Virus record (IMG/VR): IMGVR_UViG_3300035670_000225
Span: 1-60,309 of that record
Direction: 5' to 3' (one strand)
DNA length: 60,309 nt
Origin: a virus
Shown: positions 4,063 to 60,104 of the stretch, in pieces
How positions within the stretch are numbered: the stretch's first letter is position 1
Layout: the number at the start of each line of letters is the position of its first letter
Translations under genes and position numbers: made by a program
Notes under the pieces: model-generated
Told to the model about the DNA's origin: nothing
The model's input: the letters and a program-made list of their open reading frames with translations, nothing else
Databases searched by the model: none

Positions 4063-4133
4063 TGCCCGATGGTGTAACGGTAGCACAAGAGATTTTGGTT
4101 CTCTTTGTCTAGGTTCGAATCCTAGTCGGGCAT
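4063..4133 (+). tRNA. tRNA-Gln(UUG)
   Basis: Complete cloverleaf: acceptor stem TGCCCGA (4063-4069) pairs with TCGGGCA (4126-4132); D-arm GGTGTAACGGTAGCAC; anticodon stem AGAGA/TCTCT around loop TTTTGGT with anticodon TTG at 4095-4097; T-arm CTAGG-TTCGAAT-CCTAG. The discriminator is T4133 and no CCA is encoded. It reads CAA (and by wobble CAG). The 95 bases before it (3968-4062) hold no gene that I can support. Confidence 0.95.
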
Positions 4134-5919: not shown

Positions 5920-6398
5920 TGACTAAAGAACAAGAGCCGGCAGCATGGGCAGTGTGGTCGCGGCAAAGCGGGTGTTTGGCGGCATCCGTTCGCCGCGAAG
6001 ACGCAGTTGATATGCAATCTGAGTTTGAGGTCTATACCGACATTGTTCCGCTTTATTTATCGTCGCCACTTACCGACACGGAACGGGAGGCGATCCTGTT
6101 TTGCGTCAGTTGCGCGCAGGACTACCGCGATACGCTGGACGGTAGCGAGGAACGCGCCACGCAAATGATCGAAACAGCGATGCGGTTCGCCATGCCACCA
6201 GTCGGCCCTGCTCCCGTCGAAGGCCCTCGCACCGCGTCGGTCACTGATGTAGGCGGGGCGGGGCCGACGCTCGCCGACGAGGAGCGGGAGGCGATTGAAA
6301 TGGCGATCCGGCGAGAACGCGGCGAGTGGTACGGGAACCCAGATTACATGCGGGCTATTACGCTGCGGGGGCTGCTGGAGAGGACACGCAATGGCTGA
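5919..6398 (+). CDS. Hypothetical protein with duplicated LTD-EREAI module
   Basis: A 159-residue protein containing two copies of a short helical motif: LTDTEREAI (about residue 50) and LADEEREAI (about residue 117), the second followed by TLRGLLERT at the C-terminus. The same module recurs in the next gene. The N-terminal WAVWSRQSGCLAASVRREDA segment resembles small proteins that describe hits of a request-like fold, but I assign no function. This LTD-EREAI...LRGLLER composition is one I associate with accessory proteins of Planctomycetes and their phages. Start and stop overlap neighbours by 1 and 8 nt. Confidence 0.7.
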   Translation: MTKEQEPAAWAVWSRQSGCLAASVRREDAVDMQSEFEVYTDIVPLYLSSPLTDTEREAILFCVSCAQDYRDTLDGSEERATQMIETAMRFAMPPVGPAPVEGPRTASVTDVGGAGPTLADEEREAIEMAIRRERGEWYGNPDYMRAITLRGLLERTRNG

Positions 6399-18134: not shown

Positions 18135-21100
18135 ATGTCGTCTGCTGTATCTTTAAACCACAGGCACGCAAGCGCGTTATATGATGATTCTGGCGCGGAA
18201 TTGACGGCTGAACTGTTTCCAATGGTGGCTTTAGATTCCATTGGAATGCCGCCCGCCGGCGCCGATTTTATTGCACACGCTGTCGCGCTCGGGGATGATC
18301 CGGCAGTCGTGAACATCAAGAACAAGAAAAAACTGCCGGTCGGAGAAAAGTTGGTCCATTTGTATCGGGCCGCTCTTTACGACCCCAATTTCTCTATGCC
18401 GATTACGTTGAAAAGCGGAATCGAAGTTGTTCAGTTTTTGCCGGGCCATCTTTTGAAATACGGCACGGGCGACGACCCGGTCTACGGGCCGAAGCCGGCG
18501 CGTGTCATGATTGTCAGTAAAATTCCCGGGATCAACGAACTCAATGATCGCAGCGCTATTACGGGCCCGGTCATGGAGCCGATGTTTAAGGCCCTGCGTC
18601 AATGCGGCTTCAACCCGCGCGACTACCGCGAGTGGTACATTACGCACGCGTGCAAATTCGGCTCCCCGACGCCTGACACGCCCGCCGTACCTGCGGCTTG
18701 GATTAAAAATTGCGCCGTATTGTTGGCGCAAGAAATCCGGCTCACCAAGCCCGATTTTATTTTGTGTCTTGGGAATGAGGCGACCAAAGCCGTACTGAAT
18801 ACGACGGCGAGTGTCTCCGAATTGTCCGGCCGCGCGACTACGCTGCAAACCTATGACGCCGAAGGCAACGCCCGCGATATCAAAGTAATGTCGATTATGC
18901 ATCCCGGCTACGTCATGCGAAAGCCAGAGATGTACGAGGATTTTTGTGGGCAACTTTCTCGTTTTAAGGATTTAATCGAGAACCGCGAAACGGTGGTCGA
19001 AGAGGTCGATCACGCAGATATTTACACGGAGGAGACGCTGCGTGAAACCGTCGACGCCATGCTGGCCGACCCAGACCCAAATGCCAATATCATCGCAGTC
19101 GACTGCGAGTGGCACGGCGACTATCCTACAGAAGACGGCGCGTATTTGCGCACGATTCAGATATCTAATAAAGATAAGTGGGCGCGCACTATCGTTTTGC
19201 GGCATCAAGGCGGCGCGGAAGCGTTTAAGCCAAACTTGGCCGCAGCCCGCGCGCAATTGCAGCGGCTGCTCAAAAGTACGCCGGAAAGAGCCGTTCGAGT
19301 TGGGGGGCATTTCTTCCGTGCTGACCTGCCATGGCTTATTGATTTTGGCGTGGATTTGCGCCCGGAGTATGCTCCCGCCCCCGATCCCGAAGACCGTTCC
19401 CGCGGAGGTTGGGATACCAGCCTCATGTACCACGCCGTTAATGAGTGCGCCAAGTATGGTCTCGACGTTTGCTCCATGCGTTTCACGTCAGCCCCTACTT
19501 ACTGGGACGAACTTAACGAGTGGCGAAAGCGTTATCGCGCAGAAAAAAAATTAAAAGCCAGTGATATGGCCGGCTATGGCGATTGCCCCGCGCACATTTT
19601 GCACCCATACGGCAACTACGACGCCGATGTGACACGACGCATTATGATGCACTTTTACGGAACTAACGGCGAAGATGGCGCAATAGCCAAAGACCAGCAC
19701 GGACACGACTGCTGGTTACCGTATTGGACTGCACATCAAGCGTCCCTGTCATTTTTGGAAATGGAAATGACCGGCCTACTCGTCGACCGTACGCGGGCCG
19801 ATGAGTTGACGACTTTATTTATGAACACGCAGGATCGGTTGTTGGTAGAAATTCGGCAAGAACTTAACTGGCCAGATTTCAACCCTAAAAGTCAACCGCA
19901 ATTGTCGGTCGCCCTGTTCGGCGCGCAGTTTTCGAATCGATATACAAATCCGCCTAATGTTCCGGAAGACGCGCAACTTTTGAACTTACGGCCTGTGAAA
20001 ACTACAGGCAAACGCCCGGTGCTATGGAATGAAATGAGTTGGAGGGGCGTAAACCCCGACACCGCCACGCCTAGCACAGACAAAGAAAGCCTTGGTATTC
20101 TCGGGCACATTAACGCAACTGCGGCTAAAATTCGCGACTACAAGTTCATCAGCCAAGTGTTGCAGTCGGTATTGCGTAAACCCTCCACCACGGAAGACGG
20201 AGATTACGAGGTCGATGAAAACGGTAATTACTCGTATGAAAAAGGTTTGGTCGGCTGTGTCCACGCCGACGGTAAGGTCCGTACTCACTTTTTTCAAACC
20301 AAGGAAACGGGCCGCGCCTCCTCATCTCGACCACCTTTGCAAAATCTCAGTTCGCGGCGAGAAAACGACTACGCACGAATTCTTGGAAACCAATACCAGC
20401 ATCCAGTTCGATCGATATTGCGCGTCCCGCCCGGTTACGTCGGGATCGAAACGGACCTCACTGGTGCGGAATTGGCGGTCCTCGCGTGGTTAAGCCAAGA
20501 CGCCGATATGATTGAACATGTGCGACGGAACATATTGCCAGAAAACCATCCAGACCACTACGACATTCATAGCCAGCAGGCAGTGAAAACTTTTAACATC
20601 ACTGACTGCCCGCCAACAAAAGAAGGTCTGAAAAAAGCAGGCAAAAAGGGTTTGCGCGTCGCCGCCAAGAACGTCAACTTTGGCATTCCTTATGGTCGCG
20701 GCGCCGAGGCGCTGGCGCGGCAATGCAAAGAAGAGGGGGAAGACGTTACGGCCGACGAGTGCCAAGCGATGATCGAGGCTTATTTTGCGTCATATCCTCG
20801 CACGCGCACATTTCTAGCCGAATGTCGCGCTCGCTCTCAAGACCCCGGCTGGATTATCGGCCCCTACGGGCGGATGCGGCGTTTTGTGCCGTCTAAGGAC
20901 CGGGCGATCCGCGGCGAGCAAGAGCGGCAAGCGCAGAACTTTCCGATTCAAGGCGGTGTGGCTGATGCTGTGTCTATTGCGCTGTCAAACTTTTATCAGT
21001 ACCGCGAAACGCATCCAGAGATTGATTACAAAATTGCGCTGCAGATTCATGACGCTATTGTGTTGCTCGTGCCGATTGAGCACGCTGAACAAGTGTACAA

Positions 21101-21293
21101 AGAGGTGGTGCCTAAATGCATGGTGGATGACGTTCCCTTTTATCCGCGGAAATTAGACGGGTCTATGATCTCCGCGGGTCCGTATCGATTTGGTTCTTCT
21201 CGCGAAGTGTTTGTTCACTGGGGCGAAACCCTGAACGCAGAGGACGCCCACGCGCTTGGATTGCGATGGTTGGCCGAGGAATTGGGGGCTTGA
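18135..21293 (+). CDS. Family A DNA polymerase with N-terminal UDG-like domain
   Basis: A 1052-residue three-part protein. Residues about 100-280 resemble family 4/5 uracil-DNA glycosylase: MIVSKIPG (125-132), ILCLGNEA (209-216) and MHPGYVMRKP (255-264). However, the motif-1 acidic/Asn residues of active enzymes look altered, so it may be inactive. Residues about 315-510 are a DEDDy 3'-5' exonuclease: VDCEWH (Asp323, Glu325), FFRADLPW (Asp397) and YGNYDADV (Tyr492, Asp496). Residues about 530-1052 are the polymerase: motif A ETDLTGAEL (Asp774, Glu779), motif B RVAAKNVNFGIPYG (Arg841, Lys845, Phe849) and motif C QIHDAIV (His972, Asp973). It is the replicative polymerase of the phage. UDG-like/PolA fusions are known in SPO1-like phages. 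Confidence 0.93.
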   Translation: MSSAVSLNHRHASALYDDSGAELTAELFPMVALDSIGMPPAGADFIAHAVALGDDPAVVNIKNKKKLPVGEKLVHLYRAALYDPNFSMPITLKSGIEVVQFLPGHLLKYGTGDDPVYGPKPARVMIVSKIPGINELNDRSAITGPVMEPMFKALRQCGFNPRDYREWYITHACKFGSPTPDTPAVPAAWIKNCAVLLAQEIRLTKPDFILCLGNEATKAVLNTTASVSELSGRATTLQTYDAEGNARDIKVMSIMHPGYVMRKPEMYEDFCGQLSRFKDLIENRETVVEEVDHADIYTEETLRETVDAMLADPDPNANIIAVDCEWHGDYPTEDGAYLRTIQISNKDKWARTIVLRHQGGAEAFKPNLAAARAQLQRLLKSTPERAVRVGGHFFRADLPWLIDFGVDLRPEYAPAPDPEDRSRGGWDTSLMYHAVNECAKYGLDVCSMRFTSAPTYWDELNEWRKRYRAEKKLKASDMAGYGDCPAHILHPYGNYDADVTRRIMMHFYGTNGEDGAIAKDQHGHDCWLPYWTAHQASLSFLEMEMTGLLVDRTRADELTTLFMNTQDRLLVEIRQELNWPDFNPKSQPQLSVALFGAQFSNRYTNPPNVPEDAQLLNLRPVKTTGKRPVLWNEMSWRGVNPDTATPSTDKESLGILGHINATAAKIRDYKFISQVLQSVLRKPSTTEDGDYEVDENGNYSYEKGLVGCVHADGKVRTHFFQTKETGRASSSRPPLQNLSSRRENDYARILGNQYQHPVRSILRVPPGYVGIETDLTGAELAVLAWLSQDADMIEHVRRNILPENHPDHYDIHSQQAVKTFNITDCPPTKEGLKKAGKKGLRVAAKNVNFGIPYGRGAEALARQCKEEGEDVTADECQAMIEAYFASYPRTRTFLAECRARSQDPGWIIGPYGRMRRFVPSKDRAIRGEQERQAQNFPIQGGVADAVSIALSNFYQYRETHPEIDYKIALQIHDAIVLLVPIEHAEQVYKEVVPKCMVDDVPFYPRKLDGSMISAGPYRFGSSREVFVHWGETLNAEDAHALGLRWLAEELGA

Positions 21294-21317
21294 TTCTTCC
21301 TCGTGGTCTGCTAGACT
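21290..21317 (+). promoter_or_regulatory. Possible sigma70-like promoter
   Basis: TTGATT (21290-21295) and TAGACT (21312-21317) are separated by 16 nt. Each matches the sigma70 consensus at four of six positions. It would drive the strongly biased gene at 21409. The evidence is consensus similarity only. Confidence 0.25.
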
Positions 21318-21386
21318 GGCGGTAACCACGCGGGAGCCTCAACAGCATCCCGTACTTTATTAACAACGCTGGGTACGATACCCAGC
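21302..21386 (+). promoter_or_regulatory. Structured leader before the 21409 gene
   Basis: Between the polymerase and the next gene lie two potential hairpins: CGTGGT (21302-21307) with ACCACG (21325-21330), and a perfect 8-bp stem GCTGGGTA/TACCCAGC (21368-21375 with 21379-21386) with a 3-nt loop, followed by an A-rich tract and the RBS AAAGAGG. No U-run follows, so it is not an intrinsic terminator. A segment ACGCGG...ACAGCATCCC in between loosely resembles the repeated element at 33031/59080. It probably stabilises or controls the downstream mRNA. Confidence 0.45.
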
Positions 21387-21408
21387 ACAACAAAGAAAGA
21401 GGCTTAAA

Positions 21409-22776
21409 ATGCCACGGTATGATTCTGAAAATCTTGCTGCCATCGACCCCGAGTTCCGTCGGCAGCACAATCTGGATAACGGCCCCCGCAAGAACAGCCC
21501 GTATACATACGGCAAAAACGTTCTGATTGCGGCTGGCAACGAACTCATGGCCAACGGCTTGTGCTTGCGGCTGATGCCCATGTACGAAGAGGGCGCCGGC
21601 CAGCGCCAATTTGTCAATTTCCGCGAGGGTGCGGACGACGTCGCCATCGGCGACTGGTGCCGGTTGCGGACCGTGGCGCACTGGGTTGGTAATCCCGGCG
21701 TGTGCATGATCCTGACTGACGGTTCGCCGGAAATGGACTTGCGTGAGAATCCGTACAACCTGTTGTACAACGTCGCGTGGAAGAACAAGGAAACTCCGGG
21801 TATCGGCCGGCTTTACAGCGAACTGCTTCAGAAGCCGAAGGTCATGAAGTCGCACATCGGCTCGCTGACCAAACCCGAGAAGATTCTGTTTGTGTCGGCT
21901 AGCATCGTCGGCACTGATGATCGCGGGCAGATTGTGCTGAGCCAGTTCCTCGACGACCCGAAGAAGAACGCGCGCGTAATCGGCCTTAAGTTCAGCGCCC
22001 TTCAATCGCTGTTCTCGATTCTTAAGGTCCGCGATCCCGATACCAACGAGTACTTGACCGGCGACATGCTGTCGTTTGGTCCGGCTAAATTGCTCACTAT
22101 CCTGCCCGAGGCTTACCAGAGCAAAGAGCAGAAGGTGATGGGCATCGGCGCCGACGGCCCTGAGACGTTCTTCTGCCCGAAGTACGCCCGCGGCCCGAAG
22201 GACTCGCAGTACATCGTTGGCTACCCGCCGCCGGATCGCCGCAGCGCCTTCACCCACTTCGCGATTGTTCATGACTCCTACAACGGTCAGCAGATTTCGT
22301 TGGAAGATCACGCCGACCGCATCGCCGAAGAGGCGCAGTCGTGGGATCAGATGCTGAACGTACTGTCGTACGAAGAGCAGGCGGAAAAGTTGGCGGGCGC
22401 GTTTCCGCGCGAGGCGCTTGAGTTTGCGTGGCGTGAGTATCCGCAGTACTTGCGTACGCTGGGTCGTGGTTCGTCTTCTCCCGCTCCGAGTTCGTCGGCG
22501 TCTGAGTTTATTGACGACGAGAACGACGAGGCCGTGCAGGCGTTCCAGCAGCGACCCGCGGCGAAGAGCGCCCCGGCGCCGAAGCCGGCCCCCAAGGACC
22601 CTCCGGCGCCTTGGGACCCCGTAGACGCCGAGGTCAGCCCGGAAGACGCCGAGGCTGTAGCGGGTCTGTTTGACGCGGCAACCGCCCCGGCAGCAGAAGA
22701 GCCCGCGACTGAGAAGTTGAAGCCGGCGGACATCCTTGCGCGTGCGCGTGCTAAGGCTGCCAAGTTGAAGAAGTAG
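21409..22776 (+). CDS. Putative ssDNA-binding or replication accessory protein
   Basis: A 455-residue protein of unrecognised family. Residues 1-345 form one mixed alpha/beta domain with many aromatic residues; about 350-440 is a disordered Pro/Ala/Ser linker with acidic patches (IDDENDE), ending in a basic Ala/Lys helix (ARARAKAAKLKK). It lies between the DNA polymerase and RecA genes, has its own structured leader and a terminator, and uses G/C-ending codons more than its neighbours (AAG, CTG, ATC), which suggests high expression. That combination is what a phage ssDNA-binding protein (gp32 type) would show. The assignment is inferred from context, not homology. Confidence 0.6.
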   Translation: MPRYDSENLAAIDPEFRRQHNLDNGPRKNSPYTYGKNVLIAAGNELMANGLCLRLMPMYEEGAGQRQFVNFREGADDVAIGDWCRLRTVAHWVGNPGVCMILTDGSPEMDLRENPYNLLYNVAWKNKETPGIGRLYSELLQKPKVMKSHIGSLTKPEKILFVSASIVGTDDRGQIVLSQFLDDPKKNARVIGLKFSALQSLFSILKVRDPDTNEYLTGDMLSFGPAKLLTILPEAYQSKEQKVMGIGADGPETFFCPKYARGPKDSQYIVGYPPPDRRSAFTHFAIVHDSYNGQQISLEDHADRIAEEAQSWDQMLNVLSYEEQAEKLAGAFPREALEFAWREYPQYLRTLGRGSSSPAPSSSASEFIDDENDEAVQAFQQRPAAKSAPAPKPAPKDPPAPWDPVDAEVSPEDAEAVAGLFDAATAPAAEEPATEKLKPADILARARAKAAKLKK

Positions 22777-22784
22777 TCTTTTCG

Positions 22785-22846
22785 CCGCCGCAATGTCGCG
22801 GGTGTCCCGGGATTTTGCCCCGGCATTGCGGCGGTTATTTTATTTT
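22785..22846 (+). terminator. Rho-independent terminator
   Basis: CCGCCGCAATG (22785-22795) pairs perfectly with CATTGCGGCGG (22824-22834), an 11-bp stem with a 28-nt loop that itself can fold (CCCGGG...CCCCGG). The stem is followed by TTATTTTATTTTT. It closes transcription after the putative ssDNA-binding protein gene, which is consistent with that gene being expressed as a separate strong unit. Confidence 0.8.
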
Positions 22847-22871
22847 TACACGCACAAAGGGCAGATTGTTT

Positions 22872-24248
22872 ATGGGCCGCAAGAAAAAGAACGAAGATAA
22901 TGATATCAGTGTGTTCGACGTTAACGGCGAACACCCCGTTATTACGGAAGTGCTAAAAGCCGCCGCCGAGGACAATGACCCGCTAATTGGCATACCCCTG
23001 CCAACCTTGGCGGCGCGTTACCTGCTTCAGGCGAATATTTTTCCGCTGTCGCGATTCACGCAATTGCGCGGCGAATTTAGCGCGGGTAAATCAGCGTTGT
23101 TGCTGGAGATTATGCGGTGGTTTCACGTCTACGGCGGCGGCGCCATCCTGATCGACACCGAGAACAAGGGTAGTCCGACTATGTTGGCGGGCATGCTGGG
23201 GCATAACCCGCAGCACATCGCCCGCACGAAGGTCACGACGGCCGCCAGCGTAGAAGAGTGGCAGAGCAAGTACATGGGTTTTTGCAAGGCCATCCACGCG
23301 CAGATCGACGCGGCAAACGCTCCTGACCGTGTCATCCCAATTTGTATTGGCGTCGATTCTATCTCGGCCGTCGAGGTAGATAGGCGTGTGGAAAAGGTTG
23401 CCGACGAAGGCCACGCGGCTGCCGGCCATCCTTATCTGGCTCGTAACCTTTCAGACTTTATGCGGACAGCGCTAGTGCCCACGTTGCGGCACTATCCGAT
23501 TGCTTTGATCGCTACGAATCACCTCAAGGAGGAGATTAATAGCATGGGTTTTGGTCCGCCCAAAAAGTACGCCCCGGGCGGCGCCAGCCTCGACTATTAC
23601 CCGACCTTAATCATCGACATGCAGAAAGCGGCACGAAACAACATTGTTTCCGGCCGCGCCGAAGGTCAGGCCGTACGGCTTATGGCTACCAAGAATAATT
23701 TGGGCGCTCCCGGCCGTAAGTTGGTCGTAAACCTAATGTGGTACAACGACATCGTTTCAGCAAAGGACGCTGAAGGAAATGAAAATTACCGAAACCAGCA
23801 GTATCACTACTGGGACTGGCATACGGCGTCTATTCGCCTGCTTATGGATTTGCAGGCGGCAGACAAAAAGCCCGCACCCGGAATCGACCCGAAGTTGCCG
23901 GCGCTCGTCAAACAGGTGTGCGACTTTGAGTACAAGCACGGCACCAAGAACGCCGAAACGCCGCTTGTTTATTCAACGGCTCTCGGCATCACGAAGCAGA
24001 ACGCGATCTCCGAGGTGGAGGCGTCAATGGCGCTCGAAGAGAATAAAAAGGTGCTCGGCGTTTTGCACGGGTTGCTCGGAGTCAACGAATACACTATTTG
24101 TGACCCGGCTAAAAAGTATCGCGAGCAAGTTATGGCCGAGTTGAAGCAGCAGCAGATGACCGACGTGCCTGAACTTATGGCTGCCGCCAGCATGTCAGGG
24201 GCCAGCATTATTCCAGAAGATTTTGATCCGCTAGGACAAGTAGATTGA
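22872..24248 (+). CDS. RecA/UvsX-like recombinase
   Basis: A 458-residue RecA-fold ATPase. ATG 22872 is chosen because the upstream in-frame ATG at 22815 lies in the terminator loop. Walker A is RGEFSAGKSA (67-74), the next strand is AILIDTENKG (91-100, catalytic Glu97), Walker B is ICIGVDSIS (Asp162), and the ATNHLKEEINSMGFG stretch corresponds to the L2 DNA-binding loop region. The C-terminal about-150 residues are an extension not seen in short UvsX. It forms the strand-exchange filament and, with SbcCD, UvsW and RuvC-like proteins, gives the phage a full recombination-dependent replication set. Confidence 0.87.
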   Translation: MGRKKKNEDNDISVFDVNGEHPVITEVLKAAAEDNDPLIGIPLPTLAARYLLQANIFPLSRFTQLRGEFSAGKSALLLEIMRWFHVYGGGAILIDTENKGSPTMLAGMLGHNPQHIARTKVTTAASVEEWQSKYMGFCKAIHAQIDAANAPDRVIPICIGVDSISAVEVDRRVEKVADEGHAAAGHPYLARNLSDFMRTALVPTLRHYPIALIATNHLKEEINSMGFGPPKKYAPGGASLDYYPTLIIDMQKAARNNIVSGRAEGQAVRLMATKNNLGAPGRKLVVNLMWYNDIVSAKDAEGNENYRNQQYHYWDWHTASIRLLMDLQAADKKPAPGIDPKLPALVKQVCDFEYKHGTKNAETPLVYSTALGITKQNAISEVEASMALEENKKVLGVLHGLLGVNEYTICDPAKKYREQVMAELKQQQMTDVPELMAAASMSGASIIPEDFDPLGQVD

Positions 24249-24255
24249 TTTTAAA

Positions 24256-24450
24256 ATGGCTGCTAAAAATATACCTAAAGTATATGCGCAGTCTTTTTTT
24301 CAAAGTGATTTGCCGCAGCGTCTTCGAGACTCGGCAAAGGCTTGTCGAGCAATAGATCGTGCGCCGCTATTGCGGGAAGCGGCCGATTGGATTGAGCGGT
24401 TAGAAAAAGAACTTTCTAAGAAAAAAACGCATGGACAGGCAAAGCAATAA
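24256..24450 (+). CDS. Hypothetical small protein
   Basis: A 64-residue, basic, helical protein. The pattern LPQRLRDSAKACRAIDRAPLLREAADWIERLEKEL is amphipathic and coiled-coil-like at the end. It begins 7 nt after the recombinase gene and overlaps the next gene by 20 nt. The function is unknown. Confidence 0.6.
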   Translation: MAAKNIPKVYAQSFFQSDLPQRLRDSAKACRAIDRAPLLREAADWIERLEKELSKKKTHGQAKQ

Positions 24451-24748
24451 ATACAACGGCTATAGCCCGTCAGACAAAGATATTATTGTTGATGGGTACA
24501 GGCTAATTTGTACGTCGATCGCGTGCCCCGAGCAGTACGACGTATTTGACGACTTGAGCGCAGAGCAGGTTGGTTACCTCCGGCTCCGGCACGGCTACTT
24601 CCGGGCCGACTATCCGGCCTGCGGCGGCAAAACAGTATACGACGCCGAAACAGCCGGCGACGGCCTATTTGATGAAGACGAGCGCATGCCGCAATTGACC
24701 GCGGCCGTTGCAGCGCTCGCCGCTGCCCGGTCGGGGGCTGCCTCGTGA
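24431..24748 (+). CDS. Hypothetical protein
   Basis: A 105-residue protein with alternating Tyr/Asp residues (CPEQYDVFDDL, FRADYPACGG) and an Ala-rich C-terminal helix. No family recognised. It overlaps the genes on both sides (20 nt and 4 nt), indicating translational coupling. Confidence 0.6.
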   Translation: MDRQSNKYNGYSPSDKDIIVDGYRLICTSIACPEQYDVFDDLSAEQVGYLRLRHGYFRADYPACGGKTVYDAETAGDGLFDEDERMPQLTAAVAALAAARSGAAS

Positions 24749-25344
24749 CGGATTCTCGCGATCAGTTTTTCGACAAACTATTTGACGAAGCAGCGCGACT
24801 GCAGACTAGCGGCTTTCAACGGCAATTGTCGTACGAGAGCCGTTTGGTACGCCGGGTGTTCAACGAGTGCGGCGTGAAGCCGCCAAGTTGGGGGCAGTTG
24901 GTCAACCTATGCAAAGCCGAAACCGGTACGCATGAAATGAGTTGCGGCTGGTTTAACAGTACGTTCCCGCGCTTTCCCGCGACGCTGTGCGGGAAAAGAA
25001 TCGGATACTGCGGCTACCGAAAAGACGAGGCTGGCAATAAAAAAAGCCTGTCGCTGTATCAGTTAACAATTGCGGAATTGTTGGCTGTTAAACACAACAT
25101 TATGGTGCGCACAATATCAAAAGCGCTGCATGTTTTGGGCGTCGAGCCGGCGCAGCCGTTTGCTTTTGTTTTTCCGGTTGTCAAAAGATTTTTTGTGGCG
25201 CATAATATGGACCTGCCTGCAAAACCCGCCGGCGACACTCCGCGGGTTTGCTGGACATACTGCACGACTGACGGCGCGATTATGCACGTCGAGCACTCGA
25301 CAACATTTTTTGGCGCACTAGGCGGCGACTGGTTCGAACTGTAG
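24745..25344 (+). CDS. Hypothetical protein
   Basis: A 199-residue protein, start overlapping the previous stop by 4 nt. Contains scattered Cys residues and an aromatic-rich C-terminus (HSTTFFGALGGDWFEL). No domain recognised. Its place after the recombinase block gives no specific clue. Confidence 0.65.
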   Translation: MTDSRDQFFDKLFDEAARLQTSGFQRQLSYESRLVRRVFNECGVKPPSWGQLVNLCKAETGTHEMSCGWFNSTFPRFPATLCGKRIGYCGYRKDEAGNKKSLSLYQLTIAELLAVKHNIMVRTISKALHVLGVEPAQPFAFVFPVVKRFFVAHNMDLPAKPAGDTPRVCWTYCTTDGAIMHVEHSTTFFGALGGDWFEL

Positions 25345-25355
25345 GAGGCGGCGCC

Positions 25356-26495
25356 GTGGTCCGGCCGGCAACTCAACAACTGCGAAGTGTGTTTGCGCCC
25401 GTTGCCGCGCTGTCTTTTAACGCCAAGCAGTACGACGAGTGTCGCGACTTTTTGTCGTCGCGAAGTTCGCAAACAGAGTCAATACCAATTGTTGACGAAG
25501 CCCAGTTGTCTATGGCGGCCGACGGCCGCATCGCAGAAAACGGGTATAGGTTTAATGCGATTGGTTTTGCCGCTGTCGCAAACGCATTGTCGTCAGGGTT
25601 GAATAGCGTGTTCAACGAACTCGCCGGCGAGACGAGGGGCAAATACAGCGTTAGCGTCGATAACGGCGATCTGGCGACTGCAACGAGCGTTTACAACGCT
25701 GTATTGCGCGCGCGGTTCGAGTTTTTGCGCGAACGTACGCTGCTGGTTAATCACCGGGAAAAAACAATCGAAGGTTTTCTTGGGCTTGAACACCGGCTGA
25801 TTGACAACGCTGTTTTTTTCAATATGGTAGCGGACGAAATTCAGGCCAAGCAGCCGGCCGCAGAGTTCTATCGCGCCGAAGTGCTGGGCCGAGAACTTCG
25901 CGTTTACTACATCGACACAAAGACAAAACGAAATGATATCTATGTAGACCCGCGGCACATTTTTGCTGGTGGCTGGTATTTTTCCAATCGGGAAGATAGT
26001 GGCTTTGCCATGCGGGCCGCGTTATGCGTCATGACCAAGTTCGGCCCGGCAATCGAGAATCGTCGAAGAAGCATGCATATCCGGCACACGGGCGCCGATC
26101 TCCTCGGCCGGGCGGCGATGATGGTTAGTAAGACCGTGGACCGCGAGATTGACATGGATGTGGTCGCAAAAAATATTAACCGACTGACGGCGACGTCGCT
26201 AAATTTTTCAGATTCCAAAGCCGTGCTCGACGCCGCGACAGAAAACTGGGTCGACTATTTAGGTCGGTTTAAAGTTACGCGCGATGATGCGCGTCAAATA
26301 TGTAAAAACGCCGCAATGGTGGGGGCGGACATAGACCCGCGAAATCCAATAGATGTCTATACCCGCGAAGTTATGAGCGCGCGGTCGCTGTATGACATGT
26401 TTTGTTCAATTTTGCGGTATTCGCGCAATCAATACCACACCACACGCGACGCGCTGCAAAGCGCGGCAATGCAATTATTGGTTCCTAACAGTTAG
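25356..26495 (+). CDS. Hypothetical protein, possibly DUF932-like
   Basis: A 379-residue protein with a GTG start at 25356 preceded by TAGGAGG. An N-terminal strand pair LSMAADGRIAENGYRFNAIGF followed by a helical AVANAL segment, then an FLGLEHRLIDNAVFFNMVADE segment (about residues 141-161) is reminiscent of the DUF932 phage/plasmid family, whose members carry a dGRIrA...Y..idN motif. The resemblance is partial. DUF932 proteins have no settled function. It may be a DNA-metabolism accessory protein. Confidence 0.6.
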   Translation: MVRPATQQLRSVFAPVAALSFNAKQYDECRDFLSSRSSQTESIPIVDEAQLSMAADGRIAENGYRFNAIGFAAVANALSSGLNSVFNELAGETRGKYSVSVDNGDLATATSVYNAVLRARFEFLRERTLLVNHREKTIEGFLGLEHRLIDNAVFFNMVADEIQAKQPAAEFYRAEVLGRELRVYYIDTKTKRNDIYVDPRHIFAGGWYFSNREDSGFAMRAALCVMTKFGPAIENRRRSMHIRHTGADLLGRAAMMVSKTVDREIDMDVVAKNINRLTATSLNFSDSKAVLDAATENWVDYLGRFKVTRDDARQICKNAAMVGADIDPRNPIDVYTREVMSARSLYDMFCSILRYSRNQYHTTRDALQSAAMQLLVPNS

Positions 26496-31973: not shown

Positions 31974-32618
31974 ATGGCTCCTCCTGCGCCATTTACGCGT
32001 GTTGACGCGATTACGAACGCGGACGAGATCGCCGCGCGGTCGTGCTCTGAATCCCTGCGCGGTTTAAACCGTCAAATATCTTTATTTACTCCGGCGCTGC
32101 TTATTACTTCAGGCAGGTTCGATCGCGATCCGGTAATAGAGTTTGACGCGCGGTTTCCAGCAGAGTCCGCCGATCTTCGGCCGTTTTGCATCGACTTGAA
32201 GCCCACGACAGACGAATTGTTTTTTTCTGGGCTTGGCGTGCGGGCTATTCCGGGGCGACCGCGGCCAGTCAACTGGGATAAACGGCTGTACGGGATCGCG
32301 CAAACACGAGAAGAAGAATGTTTTGCGTTTTTGTCGGGCATCGCATTCTCCGACGCTAAGACCGGATATTTTGCGAGCACCTTTGCGTACGACCTGACAA
32401 TACCTGATCCGACATCGCGGTTTAACGAGATGCTGCCCGTAAAAGTGTTTGGTGTCATTTCAAACCAATTTATCGCAATGCTTGAGCGGCGAGTCACAGG
32501 CCCCGCAGTTGTTCGCCACGTTCCGGTTCCAAATGAAACTGCCGCATTAAACTTTTTGCAGCAAAACGGCATTTTAAGTTCGTTTAACGGAAACGACCCC
32601 CTTATCATATGTGAGTGA
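31974..32618 (+). CDS. Hypothetical protein
   Basis: A 214-residue mixed alpha/beta protein, not recognised. It contains FAYDLTIPDP (about residues 140-149), a phrase that recurs as FSYDLTMPYT in the gene at 33301, and both have a His-Pro-rich segment later followed by a ...NGI/HGI helix. The two may be distant paralogues. It starts 3 nt after the RuvC-like gene. Confidence 0.65.
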   Translation: MAPPAPFTRVDAITNADEIAARSCSESLRGLNRQISLFTPALLITSGRFDRDPVIEFDARFPAESADLRPFCIDLKPTTDELFFSGLGVRAIPGRPRPVNWDKRLYGIAQTREEECFAFLSGIAFSDAKTGYFASTFAYDLTIPDPTSRFNEMLPVKVFGVISNQFIAMLERRVTGPAVVRHVPVPNETAALNFLQQNGILSSFNGNDPLIICE

Positions 32619-32619
32619 C

Positions 32620-33033
32620 ATGTCTGATACGCCGCCGCCTGCTAACTTGTTTCACGCTGTCATACTTCAACATGACGGCGAGTTTTTAATGGAATCATTT
32701 GCGTCCGCAGAAGAACTAGCCGCAAAATTAAAAACGCTCATTAACCGCGACGTTTCTGTGGCTTGCTATCAAGGTGTGCGACTAAACATATCGAAACCAC
32801 CGTTGCGCCACCTGATGACGCCAGACGGCAATATTCCGTTGTTTGACGCCCCGCAAACAATTGAACCCGATGACACGGGTTATCTTGGTGTCGACCCTGC
32901 GCATTTAGAAGAGCCGCCTCAACTTGGCGGCCCGGCGCAAAAAGTCGGAGCGGTGCCGGACGAGTTTTTCTCGGACGACGATGGCGAAGCAATTAATATT
33001 TTTGACAGCGCGCTCCCCGATCCAGACAACTAA
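32620..33033 (+). CDS. Hypothetical acidic protein
   Basis: A 137-residue protein, start ATG 32620 (an in-frame GTG at 32611 is an alternative). The N-terminal 60 residues look like a compact alpha/beta unit. The second half is acidic and Pro-rich (FFSDDDGEAINIFD). Its stop codon forms the first bases of the repeated regulatory element at 33031. Confidence 0.6.
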   Translation: MSDTPPPANLFHAVILQHDGEFLMESFASAEELAAKLKTLINRDVSVACYQGVRLNISKPPLRHLMTPDGNIPLFDAPQTIEPDDTGYLGVDPAHLEEPPQLGGPAQKVGAVPDEFFSDDDGEAINIFDSALPDPDN

Positions 33034-33089
33034 ATTTTGAGCAAAAACGCGGCATATTTACAGCACCCCTGTTTTGTTTAGGGCGTGCT
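33031..33089 (+). promoter_or_regulatory. Repeated promoter-like element with leader hairpin (copy 1)
   Basis: From the TAA stop at 33031 a 41-nt block (TAAATTTT...CAAAAAC..GG-CATATT...AGCACCCC.G) matches the block at 59080 at 32 of 41 positions. It is followed by a stem AGCAC-CCCT (33062-33070) with AGGG-c-GTGCT (33080-33089, one bulged base) around a GTTTTGTTT loop, then the RBS GAGGG. The conserved CATATT about 9 nt before the hairpin foot suggests a -10 element and a transcript starting near the hairpin. No -35 at standard spacing is visible. Confidence 0.6.
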
Positions 33090-33105
33090 AGTAAACGAGG
33101 GCTTT

Positions 33106-33291
33106 ATGCGTGTTGTTTTATTTCGCGGCGCCGCGGTCAAGCGGCAGCGAAAAATCGGAGACGATAAGATTTTGCTTGTGTTCTATTCTCGCCCGCCGAT
33201 AGTGGTTACGCCGCAGGAGTGGGAATCAGAAAAGCAAAATATGTATTACGACGCCAGCGTCCGACGACGCGACATTGTCCGCAGCCTATAA
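33106..33291 (+). CDS. Hypothetical small protein
   Basis: A 61-residue basic protein, first gene after the promoter-like element. ATG 33106 follows GAGGG at good spacing; an in-frame GTG at 33085 lies in the hairpin and is less likely. It contains short strands (RVVLFRG, ILLVFYSRPP). No family recognised. Confidence 0.6.
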   Translation: MRVVLFRGAAVKRQRKIGDDKILLVFYSRPPIVVTPQEWESEKQNMYYDASVRRRDIVRSL

Positions 33292-34658: not shown

Positions 34659-34684
34659 CGCTACGCAGCGCGCCCCCTTTTTTT
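34650..34684 (+). terminator. Strong rho-independent terminator
   Basis: GGGGG (34650-34654) pairs with CCCCC (34673-34677) and GCGC with GCGC inside, giving a GC-rich hairpin followed by seven T residues (34678-34684). It overlaps the stop codon of the preceding gene. It separates the unknown block from the portal operon. Confidence 0.88.
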
Positions 34685-34700
34685 AGATATCAGAGCGCAC

Positions 34701-57928: not shown

Positions 57929-57951
57929 ACTCGGCTGTCAAAGGATTGACA

Positions 57952-59082
57952 ATGGCTAAACCGACGCTGCACCTAATCGGCATTTTTCACACAATTCACA
58001 ATCAGGCGTATTCGCATTGCGCGTTTACCGGGAAAGCCCTGCGCTTTTCTAAGATGATGCGCCCGTTTGGTTACAACGTCATCGAATACGCTAACGAGGG
58101 CAGCGAAAGCGAAGCCGACGAAAAAGTGCCGATGTTGCTTAAATCGCAGTTTGACGAATACATCGGCCGCCGCGACAAAACAGCCTTTCATGGAGACGTC
58201 GCAACTGTTGGTACAAAGCCGCATCAAATTTTTGAATCCAAACTGATCGCGGAAATGAGCAAACGGATTAAACCAAAAGACTTGATCTGCCACCCATTCG
58301 GCCACGCTCATTCTCGTTTATTGCAAGAATTTCCCAAGCACACGCACATTGAAACCGGCATCGGTTACCCGACGCTGGTAAAAGGCACAATGCGTATTTT
58401 TGAATCCGAAGCGTGGCGGCACTACCACTGCGCCAAGGAAGACAGGCAAGGCACAAACTACGAGTGGGTTATTCCTAACTACTTTGATATCGATCACTGG
58501 TCGCCCAAATATGAGCCCGGGCAATACTACGCTTTCTTGGGTCGGATTTCGTCGTGCAAAGGGCTCGATACAATTAAAGAAATCGCGAAATACATCGGCA
58601 ACAAAAAAATTATTCTGTGCGGACAGGGCGATCCAACTCCGTGGCAACACCCCAACATCGAATACTGGGGGCCGATTACCGGTCAGCAACGCAGCGAATT
58701 TATGCGTAACGCAATTTGCTCGCTGATGCCCACAAACTTTTTAGAGCCGTTTGGCGGTTCTGGCGTGGAAGGCATGTTATGCGGCACACCGCTAGTATCC
58801 ACAGATTACGGCGCATTCACAGAAACCGTAGTGCCGGGCTTGACGGGTTATCGGTGCAAGACGTTGCGGGACTGGCTAGAGGCGCTGGAAATCGTCGGTG
58901 ATTTGGATCGCAGAAAAGTGGCTGAACACGCGAGGCATAAATATAGTCTGCAAACATGTGGCGCAATGTACGACAAGGCGTTTACGCAAATTTACGAATT
59001 ATACGGTAAAGGCTGGTACACGCTTCCCGATAAGTATAAACAGCGCAAAATTGACGCGCCGCCAGTTTCGAATCCCGGCTAA
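57952..59082 (+). CDS. GT4-like glycosyltransferase
   Basis: A 376-residue GT-B-fold enzyme; ATG 57952 with AAGGA upstream is preferred over the in-frame TTG 57946. Features: a substrate-side KPKDLICHPFGHAHS segment, YYAFLGRISSCKGLDTI (the typical GT4 FVGR--xxKG start of the C-terminal domain), IILCGQG, and FLEPFGGSGVEGMLCGTPLVSTDYGAFTE with the E-x7-E donor motif. It is the third glycosyltransferase of the window. The acceptor is unknown. Its stop codon begins the second copy of the repeated regulatory element. Confidence 0.82.
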   Translation: MAKPTLHLIGIFHTIHNQAYSHCAFTGKALRFSKMMRPFGYNVIEYANEGSESEADEKVPMLLKSQFDEYIGRRDKTAFHGDVATVGTKPHQIFESKLIAEMSKRIKPKDLICHPFGHAHSRLLQEFPKHTHIETGIGYPTLVKGTMRIFESEAWRHYHCAKEDRQGTNYEWVIPNYFDIDHWSPKYEPGQYYAFLGRISSCKGLDTIKEIAKYIGNKKIILCGQGDPTPWQHPNIEYWGPITGQQRSEFMRNAICSLMPTNFLEPFGGSGVEGMLCGTPLVSTDYGAFTETVVPGLTGYRCKTLRDWLEALEIVGDLDRRKVAEHARHKYSLQTCGAMYDKAFTQIYELYGKGWYTLPDKYKQRKIDAPPVSNPG

Positions 59083-59147
59083 ATTTTTGCCAAAAACCGG
59101 GCATATTCTTAGCACCCCCGTGGTTCTTTATTACGGGACTTGGGTGC
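59080..59147 (+). promoter_or_regulatory. Repeated promoter-like element with leader hairpin (copy 2)
   Basis: The block starting at the TAA stop of the glycosyltransferase gene matches the 33031 element at 32 of 41 positions: TAAATTTT, CAAAAAC, GG-CATATT and AGCACCCC are identical and in register. A hairpin follows: GCACC-CCCGT (59112-59121) with ACGGG...GGTGC (59133-59137 and 59143-59147). The strong RBS GGGAGGG and ATG 59173 come next. Same gene-end position, same order of parts and same hairpin foot make chance unlikely. Confidence 0.62.
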
Positions 59148-59172
59148 GCGTTTCGACACCGGGAGGGAACCC

Positions 59173-59352
59173 ATGTCCACGCTTCGTCTGCTTCGCGAGG
59201 TCGCGATGTTTGTCGCCGTTGTCGGTGGCGCAGCGCTCGGTTATGCCGCGGGTCAAAGTTTTGAATCCGGCGGGCAACTCGTGTGTGCGTTTGTCGGCAT
59301 GGGGGCCTTCGGGGCTTTCGCGGACATCTGTCTGCGCGGAGGAAAAAACTGA
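59173..59352 (+). CDS. Small two-TM membrane protein
   Basis: A 59-residue protein with two hydrophobic segments (AMFVAVVGGAALGYAAG and LVCAFVGMGAFGAFADICL) and a short basic C-terminus. It is the first gene after copy 2 of the promoter-like element, with strong RBS GGGAGGG. Small two-TM proteins like this are common holins; no endolysin is seen nearby in this window. Confidence 0.6.
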   Translation: MSTLRLLREVAMFVAVVGGAALGYAAGQSFESGGQLVCAFVGMGAFGAFADICLRGGKN

Positions 59353-59984: not shown

Positions 59985-59990
59985 GTGGTT

Positions 59991-60062
59991 GGGGCTGTGG
60001 CGCAACGGTAGCGCAAGGGACTTTTAATCCTTTGGTTGTGGGTTCGAATCCCACCGGCCCCA
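59991..60062 (+). tRNA. tRNA-Lys(UUU)
   Basis: Complete cloverleaf: acceptor GGGGCTG (59991-59997) pairs with CGGCCCC (60055-60061, one G-T pair); D-arm GGCGCAACGGTAGCGC; anticodon stem AGGGA/TCCTT (one G-T pair) around loop CTTTTAA with anticodon TTT (60023-60025); T-arm GTGGG-TTCGAAT-CCCAC; discriminator A60062. No CCA encoded. It reads AAA/AAG. Confidence 0.95.
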
Positions 60063-60104
60063 TTGGTTGGTTTTGTTGTTTTCATCACTTCAAGGAGGAG
60101 CCCG

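Follow-up and report, generated by a model that had tools for sequence, protein, structure and literature searches.

A two-box promoter class with a probable 5' hairpin in large tailed phages, likely recognised by a phage-encoded sigma factor

Results

A gene-end repeat present twice in the window

The DNA analysed here, referred to as the window, is the virus record IMGVR_UViG_3300035670_000225 (60,309 nt), which is probably a fragment. It carries two copies of a 41-nt repeat, located at positions 33031-33071 and 59080-59120, in which 32 of the 41 positions are identical in a single register by direct count. Each copy starts at the TAA stop codon of the gene upstream (ORFs 32611-33033 and 57946-59082), runs into a hairpin and is followed by a strong ribosome binding site (RBS), all of which confirms the description given in an earlier note on this DNA, except that the conserved block was found to begin one base before the position called there, at C33030 in the first copy and at C59079 in the second. 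Within the window only these two sites match the composite pattern at three or fewer mismatches, the expectation from shuffled sequences being 0.

In the first copy, on the plus strand, a -35 box CTAAAT (33030-33035), which includes the TAA codon that ends the gene upstream, is followed by GG and a -10 box CATATT (33051-33058, the box itself being 33053-33058), an initiator AG (33062-33063) and a predicted hairpin (33062-33089), in which AGCAC-CCCT (33062-33070) pairs with AGGG-(C)-GTGCT (33080-33089). The RBS CGAGGG (33096-33101) then precedes a gene of 61 aa (33106-33291) that is conserved in the related record G001 introduced below. An alternative 68-aa reading of this gene from position 33085 had no family match, and a protein-based search for orthologues of the gene returned only two near relatives.

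The second copy, also on the plus strand, has the same arrangement: a CTAAAT box at 59079-59084 that again includes the upstream stop codon, GG and CATATT at 59100-59107 (the box at 59102-59107), the initiator AG at 59111-59112 and a hairpin at 59112-59147, formed by GCACCC (59112-59117) pairing with GGGTGC (59142-59147) together with an inner stem. The RBS GGGAGGG (approximately 59161-59167) is followed by a gene of 59 aa (59173-59352), whose G001 orthologue lies at the same place. The gene upstream of this copy (57946-59082, plus strand) encodes a glycosyltransferase that shares approximately 60% identity with a glycosyltransferase from Synechococcus phage S-CBWM1, and its horizontal acquisition is possible. 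Two tRNA genes were also observed on the plus strand, tRNA-Gln(ttg) at 4063-4133 and tRNA-Lys(ttt) at 59990-60063, the latter downstream of the second copy.

The repeat belongs to a two-box class with fixed spacing

Direct DNA comparison of the window with named phages gave no match. The core pattern retrieved five stretches from a collection of viral contigs, including the 198-kb record G001 (IMGVR_UViG_3300032298_001038), which is collinear with the window at approximately 76% nucleotide identity over 44 kb; it contains three full copies, two of which precede the counterparts of the genes that follow the repeat in the window. A weight matrix iterated over G001 yielded approximately 12 sites with CTAAAT and GGGCATATT that are without the AGCACCCC block, and several of these lie between a hairpin with a T-run and downstream genes, among which are the small genes arrayed at 59.8-63.2 kb. 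The AGCACCCC block forms the hairpin's 5' arm; as it varies between sites, it was rejected as a recognition element. One match (L029), of atypical context, was set aside as an apparent chance hit.

The pattern of the class is CTAAAT-N17-CATATT, usually with GG before the -10 box, the consensus of both boxes having been built from 68 distinct sites. When CTAAAT and CATAT[TC] pairs were counted in 12 related records, 45 were found at a spacing of 17 and at most one at each other spacing from 0 to 40, with no peak for control words. The earlier note had stated that no ordinary -35 is present, which proved wrong: the CTAAAT box lies exactly 17 bp upstream of CATATT, even if it is not the sigma-70 hexamer TTGACA. 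Considering 33 records (31 with the sigma gene described below, the window and Salmonella phage Arash), the exact pair occurs in 28, on a single strand per record and with no match for reversed-pattern controls; it is present in 27 of the 31 sigma-bearing records and absent from Arash and from four sigma-bearing contigs that are partial. With near-duplicates among these 33 records, such counts are not wholly independent. All 26 exact pairs counted in seven genomes lie on the coding strand and none on the opposite one, and the -10 box falls inside an ORF of at least 100 aa at 6 of 57 sites, as compared to 86% of random positions. Many sites stand after terminators and ahead of genes. Independent recovery of the motif by pair counting was not achieved in G001, G009 and G010, where GC-rich repeats swamped the counts.

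Two-box spacing near 17 bp and intergenic placement on the coding strand, both of which were found here, constitute the architecture of a sigma-70-family-dependent promoter. The view that the repeat represents a phage-specific promoter class is therefore strongly supported by its fixed spacing, its restriction to one strand, its intergenic position and its recurrence at the heads of genes and operons in many relatives, the last being what the earlier note had predicted a motif search would reveal. A housekeeping sigma-70 promoter was rejected, the boxes being CTAAAT and CATATT rather than TTGACA and TATAAT, and TTGACA-N16-18-TATAAT at up to one mismatch is absent from the seven genomes. Extended -10 sites of host type (TGNTATAAT) are also present (six on the coding strand, none on the other), and other polymerases may therefore act as well; these few sigma-70-like sites suggest that the host polymerase may serve other genes. 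A further short sequence, TTAG[AC]TATCA, was observed at window position 34683-34692 (plus strand) and in G001 at 2336, 59882, 60503, 62364 and elsewhere, mostly on the coding strand, in many cases right after the T-run of a hairpin resembling a terminator and in some immediately ahead of the promoters described here.

Initiator and hairpin downstream of the -10 box

At positions 4 and 5 past the -10 box the class has a TR initiator, with T at 64 of 69 sites followed by G (54 sites) or A (15 sites) and never by a pyrimidine, while the two window copies have AG in place of TG. Bacterial RNA polymerase (RNAP) usually starts at a purine preceded by a pyrimidine, and the position of the TR initiator is consistent with the start expected approximately 5-9 nt past the -10 box in promoters of the sigma-70 family. 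Transcription thus likely starts at the purine 5 nt past the -10 box, in agreement with the earlier placement of the start close to AGCACCCC. In the window the candidate starts are G33063 and G59112, each of which is the first base of the foot of the hairpin stem.

The hairpin turned out to be a general feature of the promoter class and not one of the two window copies only: at most sites, although not all have a clear one, a hairpin immediately follows the -10 box, common in position and variable in sequence. In the discovery set, 38-nt windows placed directly after the -10 box fold more stably than shuffled sequences (median z approximately -1.0 to -1.3), with z returning to approximately 0 by 16-20 nt beyond that point. 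For an independent set of 29 non-redundant promoters collected afterwards, the mean z of the equivalent windows is -2.0, with 79% of the sites below -1.5, and z is approximately 0 from 16 nt onwards apart from a weaker dip near 108 nt. A 7-bp stem is common to twelve orthologous leaders, where 97.6% of cells are paired and five of the seven pairs are altered on both sides; none of 500 shuffles performed as well in pairing and covariation, and sliding the pairs abolishes the signal, with the qualification that the stem coordinates were taken from the same sequences and that kinship inflates the pairing and covariation counts.

The lineage encodes a sigma factor and an RNA polymerase

The Pfam model of sigma region 4 first flagged a 269-aa open frame in G001. 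The 268-aa protein scores 36.8 bits against Sigma70_r3 (cut-off 25.3) and 22.6 bits against Sigma70_r4, just below the cut-off of 24.1, and its nearest solved relatives are SigA, RpoS and RpoD, the profile match to SigA (1.7e-8) spanning regions 2.4 to 4. Its predicted fold, of moderate confidence (pLDDT 69.5, pTM 0.36), likewise retrieves sigma factors of the SigA/RpoS/RpoD kind. The gene was found at 31 loci. The recognition helix of region 4 reads TPGAVSQRAAK in the phage protein as opposed to TRERIRQIEAK in SigA, so that the two proteins differ in the residues presumed to contact the -35 box, which would fit a different -35 box.

RNAP beta and beta' domains are encoded in 12 of 12 large records, and each large record tested has the sigma gene as well as the RNAP. 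A single ORF of approximately 1470 aa in G001 (20920-25359, minus strand) and in G008 (142145-146524, plus strand) contains beta together with the N-terminal part of beta', the latter with its DFDGD motif, and the other large relatives have frames that match this ORF in size; in G008 a separate downstream ORF of 656 aa is apparently the remainder of beta'. An alpha subunit was sought in the records tested and not found. Neither the sigma nor the RNAP genes lie in the window fragment, both being present in its collinear relatives (G001). Because the lineage encodes both, recognition by a phage sigma factor and RNAP, as proposed in the earlier note, is likely.

A cultured relative, Salmonella phage Arash

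Arash encodes an orthologous sigma factor, Gp10, followed by genes of similar size in what is apparently the same structural neighbourhood, and it has the same kind of RNAP. Its beta, beta' and Gp10 proteins were detected in the virion by mass spectrometry, and its authors considered either a role as infection begins or carry-over resulting from high expression (PMC10585845). Despite the orthologous sigma factor, CTAAAT-N17-CATATT is absent from Arash, and a search for an analogous motif by counting pentamer pairs found only an unrelated dispersed repeat; the link to Arash is therefore one of analogy, the virion location in particular having been established for the Arash proteins. Arash further differs in that it has a second, different sigma-like protein, Gp196 (OQ632216.1, 120656-121693), for which the window's large relatives yielded no homologue. 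Five near-identical repeats dispersed over intergenic sites, each 100 bp long or more, TATATA-rich and with inverted-repeat character, were also noted in OQ632216.1 near 26.7, 66.5, 100.2, 138.6 and 173.3 kb.

Discussion

The reading that we favour, with a probability of roughly 0.7, is that the repeat is a promoter class of environmental tailed phages of approximately 200 kb, read by a phage sigma factor and likely by the phage's own RNAP, with a 5' hairpin that is probably protective. A sigma-70-family factor of the Arash Gp10 type would recognise CTAAAT as the -35 and (GG)CATATT as the -10 element, 17 bp apart, and would most likely partner the phage beta/beta' RNAP, which possibly enters with the DNA, as the Arash homologues are virion proteins. 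Transcription would begin at the purine 5 nt past the -10 box, so that a hairpin would form from the first nucleotides of the RNA, no more than a few bases from the 5' end, and this hairpin would probably shield the end from pyrophosphohydrolase and from RNases that depend on the 5' end, thereby stabilising the phage mRNA.

Protection of the mRNA appears to be the likeliest function of the hairpin because RppH and RNase E favour single-stranded 5' ends (PMC3997798). Stabilising stem-loops at the extreme 5' end, where the hairpin of the present class would also lie given the proposed start, are known from papA and others (reviewed in PMC3997798); those belong to single genes, whereas here a whole promoter class has a hairpin, of changing sequence and with a presumed stabilising role. 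The hairpin might instead act in initiation or regulation, through initial pausing, as a protein-binding site or as a translation switch. In the alignment of the twelve leaders the loop GTAT is kept while the stem covaries, and TTATY/GTATY recurs in other leaders, clustering at positions 16-19 past the -10 box, which may point to a factor that binds the loop or to a second element; most hairpins, however, are alike in position and not in sequence, consistent with a 5'-end element whose role is purely structural, and we regard a regulatory function in place of mRNA stability as unlikely, at about one chance in four.

It is also conceivable that the same promoter and phage sigma factor operate with the host core RNAP, in the manner of T4 or SPO1, while the phage RNAP uses other signals. 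Phage sigma factors classically redirect the host core, the two-box geometry is an ordinary bacterial one, and no alpha subunit of the phage enzyme was found. Against this stand the co-occurrence of sigma and RNAP in all large records tested and the presence of both Arash homologues in the virion; use of the host core is regarded as rather unlikely. Recognition of the class by the phage sigma factor is considered likely, and its use by the phage's own RNAP is, on balance, favoured.

A host alternative sigma factor such as a sigma-28-like one, the phage sigma factor doing something else, is very improbable. The consensus of sigma-28 promoters is TAAA-N15-GCCGATAA, and TAAA-N15-GGGCATAT in the present class has the same register; nevertheless, the -10 box is unlike GCCGATAA at half of its positions, its consensus being GGGCATATT or similar, and the class goes together with the phage sigma gene in 27 of 31 sigma-bearing records. 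A terminator, or another repeat that is not a promoter, is scarcely credible: a GC-containing hairpin does lie past a gene end, but only 3 of 69 sites have at least six T residues in the 8 nt after the hairpin, the remaining 66 being without a T-run, and conserved boxes at fixed spacing precede the hairpin at sites that are themselves placed ahead of genes, often past a separate terminator. A sigma-54 (-24/-12) promoter can be dismissed almost entirely. By eye, GG-N10-GC is matched by the two window copies and by the third full copy of G001, but the wider alignment revealed that the GC is not conserved across the class, being part of the variable hairpin arm, and this reading leaves CTAAAT at a fixed 17 bp unexplained.

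With respect to the timing of expression, the promoter had been proposed to be a late one, for which no support was found: arrays of small genes too have copies at their heads, and in Arash the homologues of both polymerase and sigma factor are virion components. As the polymerase is possibly injected, the designation could be mistaken, and early use seems at least as likely as late use. If packaging in the virion, as in Arash, holds for these phages, transcription from the promoters could begin at injection. A more far-reaching version of the phage sigma and RNAP reading, namely that the lineage injects a complete sigma-dependent RNAP of its own, with the promoters as a private code possibly in use from injection and most primary transcripts bearing a hairpin at the 5' end as a protective cap, is put forward tentatively, at about one chance in three.

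Several features of the class have counterparts in other phages. The late promoters of SPO1, which depend on gp33/gp34 and the host core polymerase, are two-box promoters of a phage sigma factor with a -10 box GATATT, a -35 box CGTTAGA and a spacing of 18 bp, so that the -10 box resembles CATATT while the -35 box and spacing differ; to our knowledge they have no class-wide hairpin. The late promoters of Kayvirus vB_SauM-515A1 have likewise been attributed to a phage sigma factor, with a purine-enriched start approximately 6 nt after the -10 box, but consist of a long -10 element TGTTATATTA without a -35 box (PMC7698491), whereas the class described here has a -35 box at fixed spacing, a 5' hairpin and, in the same genomes, an RNAP. 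Phages phiKZ and AR9 have a multisubunit RNAP without alpha, and late starts of AR9 have T before the A or G at +1, both of which recall the present class; they lack, in contrast, a two-box sigma-type promoter and a recognisable sigma homologue, AR9 making use of gp226 and a uracil motif in the template strand for promoter recognition (PMC7598289). The mReC phages, RNAP-encoding Caudovirales, are likewise tailed phages of approximately 200 kb whose beta and beta' are near enough to the cellular subunits to be matched by Pfam, a likeness of genome size and gene content; the main text of that study mentions neither sigma factors nor promoters (Weinheimer and Aylward 2020, PMC7481178).

No promoters of this RNAP-encoding tailed-phage lineage were found in the open-licence literature, and they appear to be undescribed so far. 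A defined promoter together with a defined sigma factor makes the start of transcription in such phages directly testable, including by means of the cultured relative, and the pair could yield an orthogonal transcription system. It is, moreover, unusual in itself for the transcripts of a promoter class to begin regularly with a covarying hairpin, as they would here.

Two further features of the window, both on the plus strand, may be recorded: positions 6202-6267 match the Rfam model RF03075 (DUF3800-VIII RNA) at 56.4 bits, above the gathering score, and the gene at 18135-21293 encodes a single protein in which a family A DNA polymerase is combined with an N-terminal uracil-DNA glycosylase domain.
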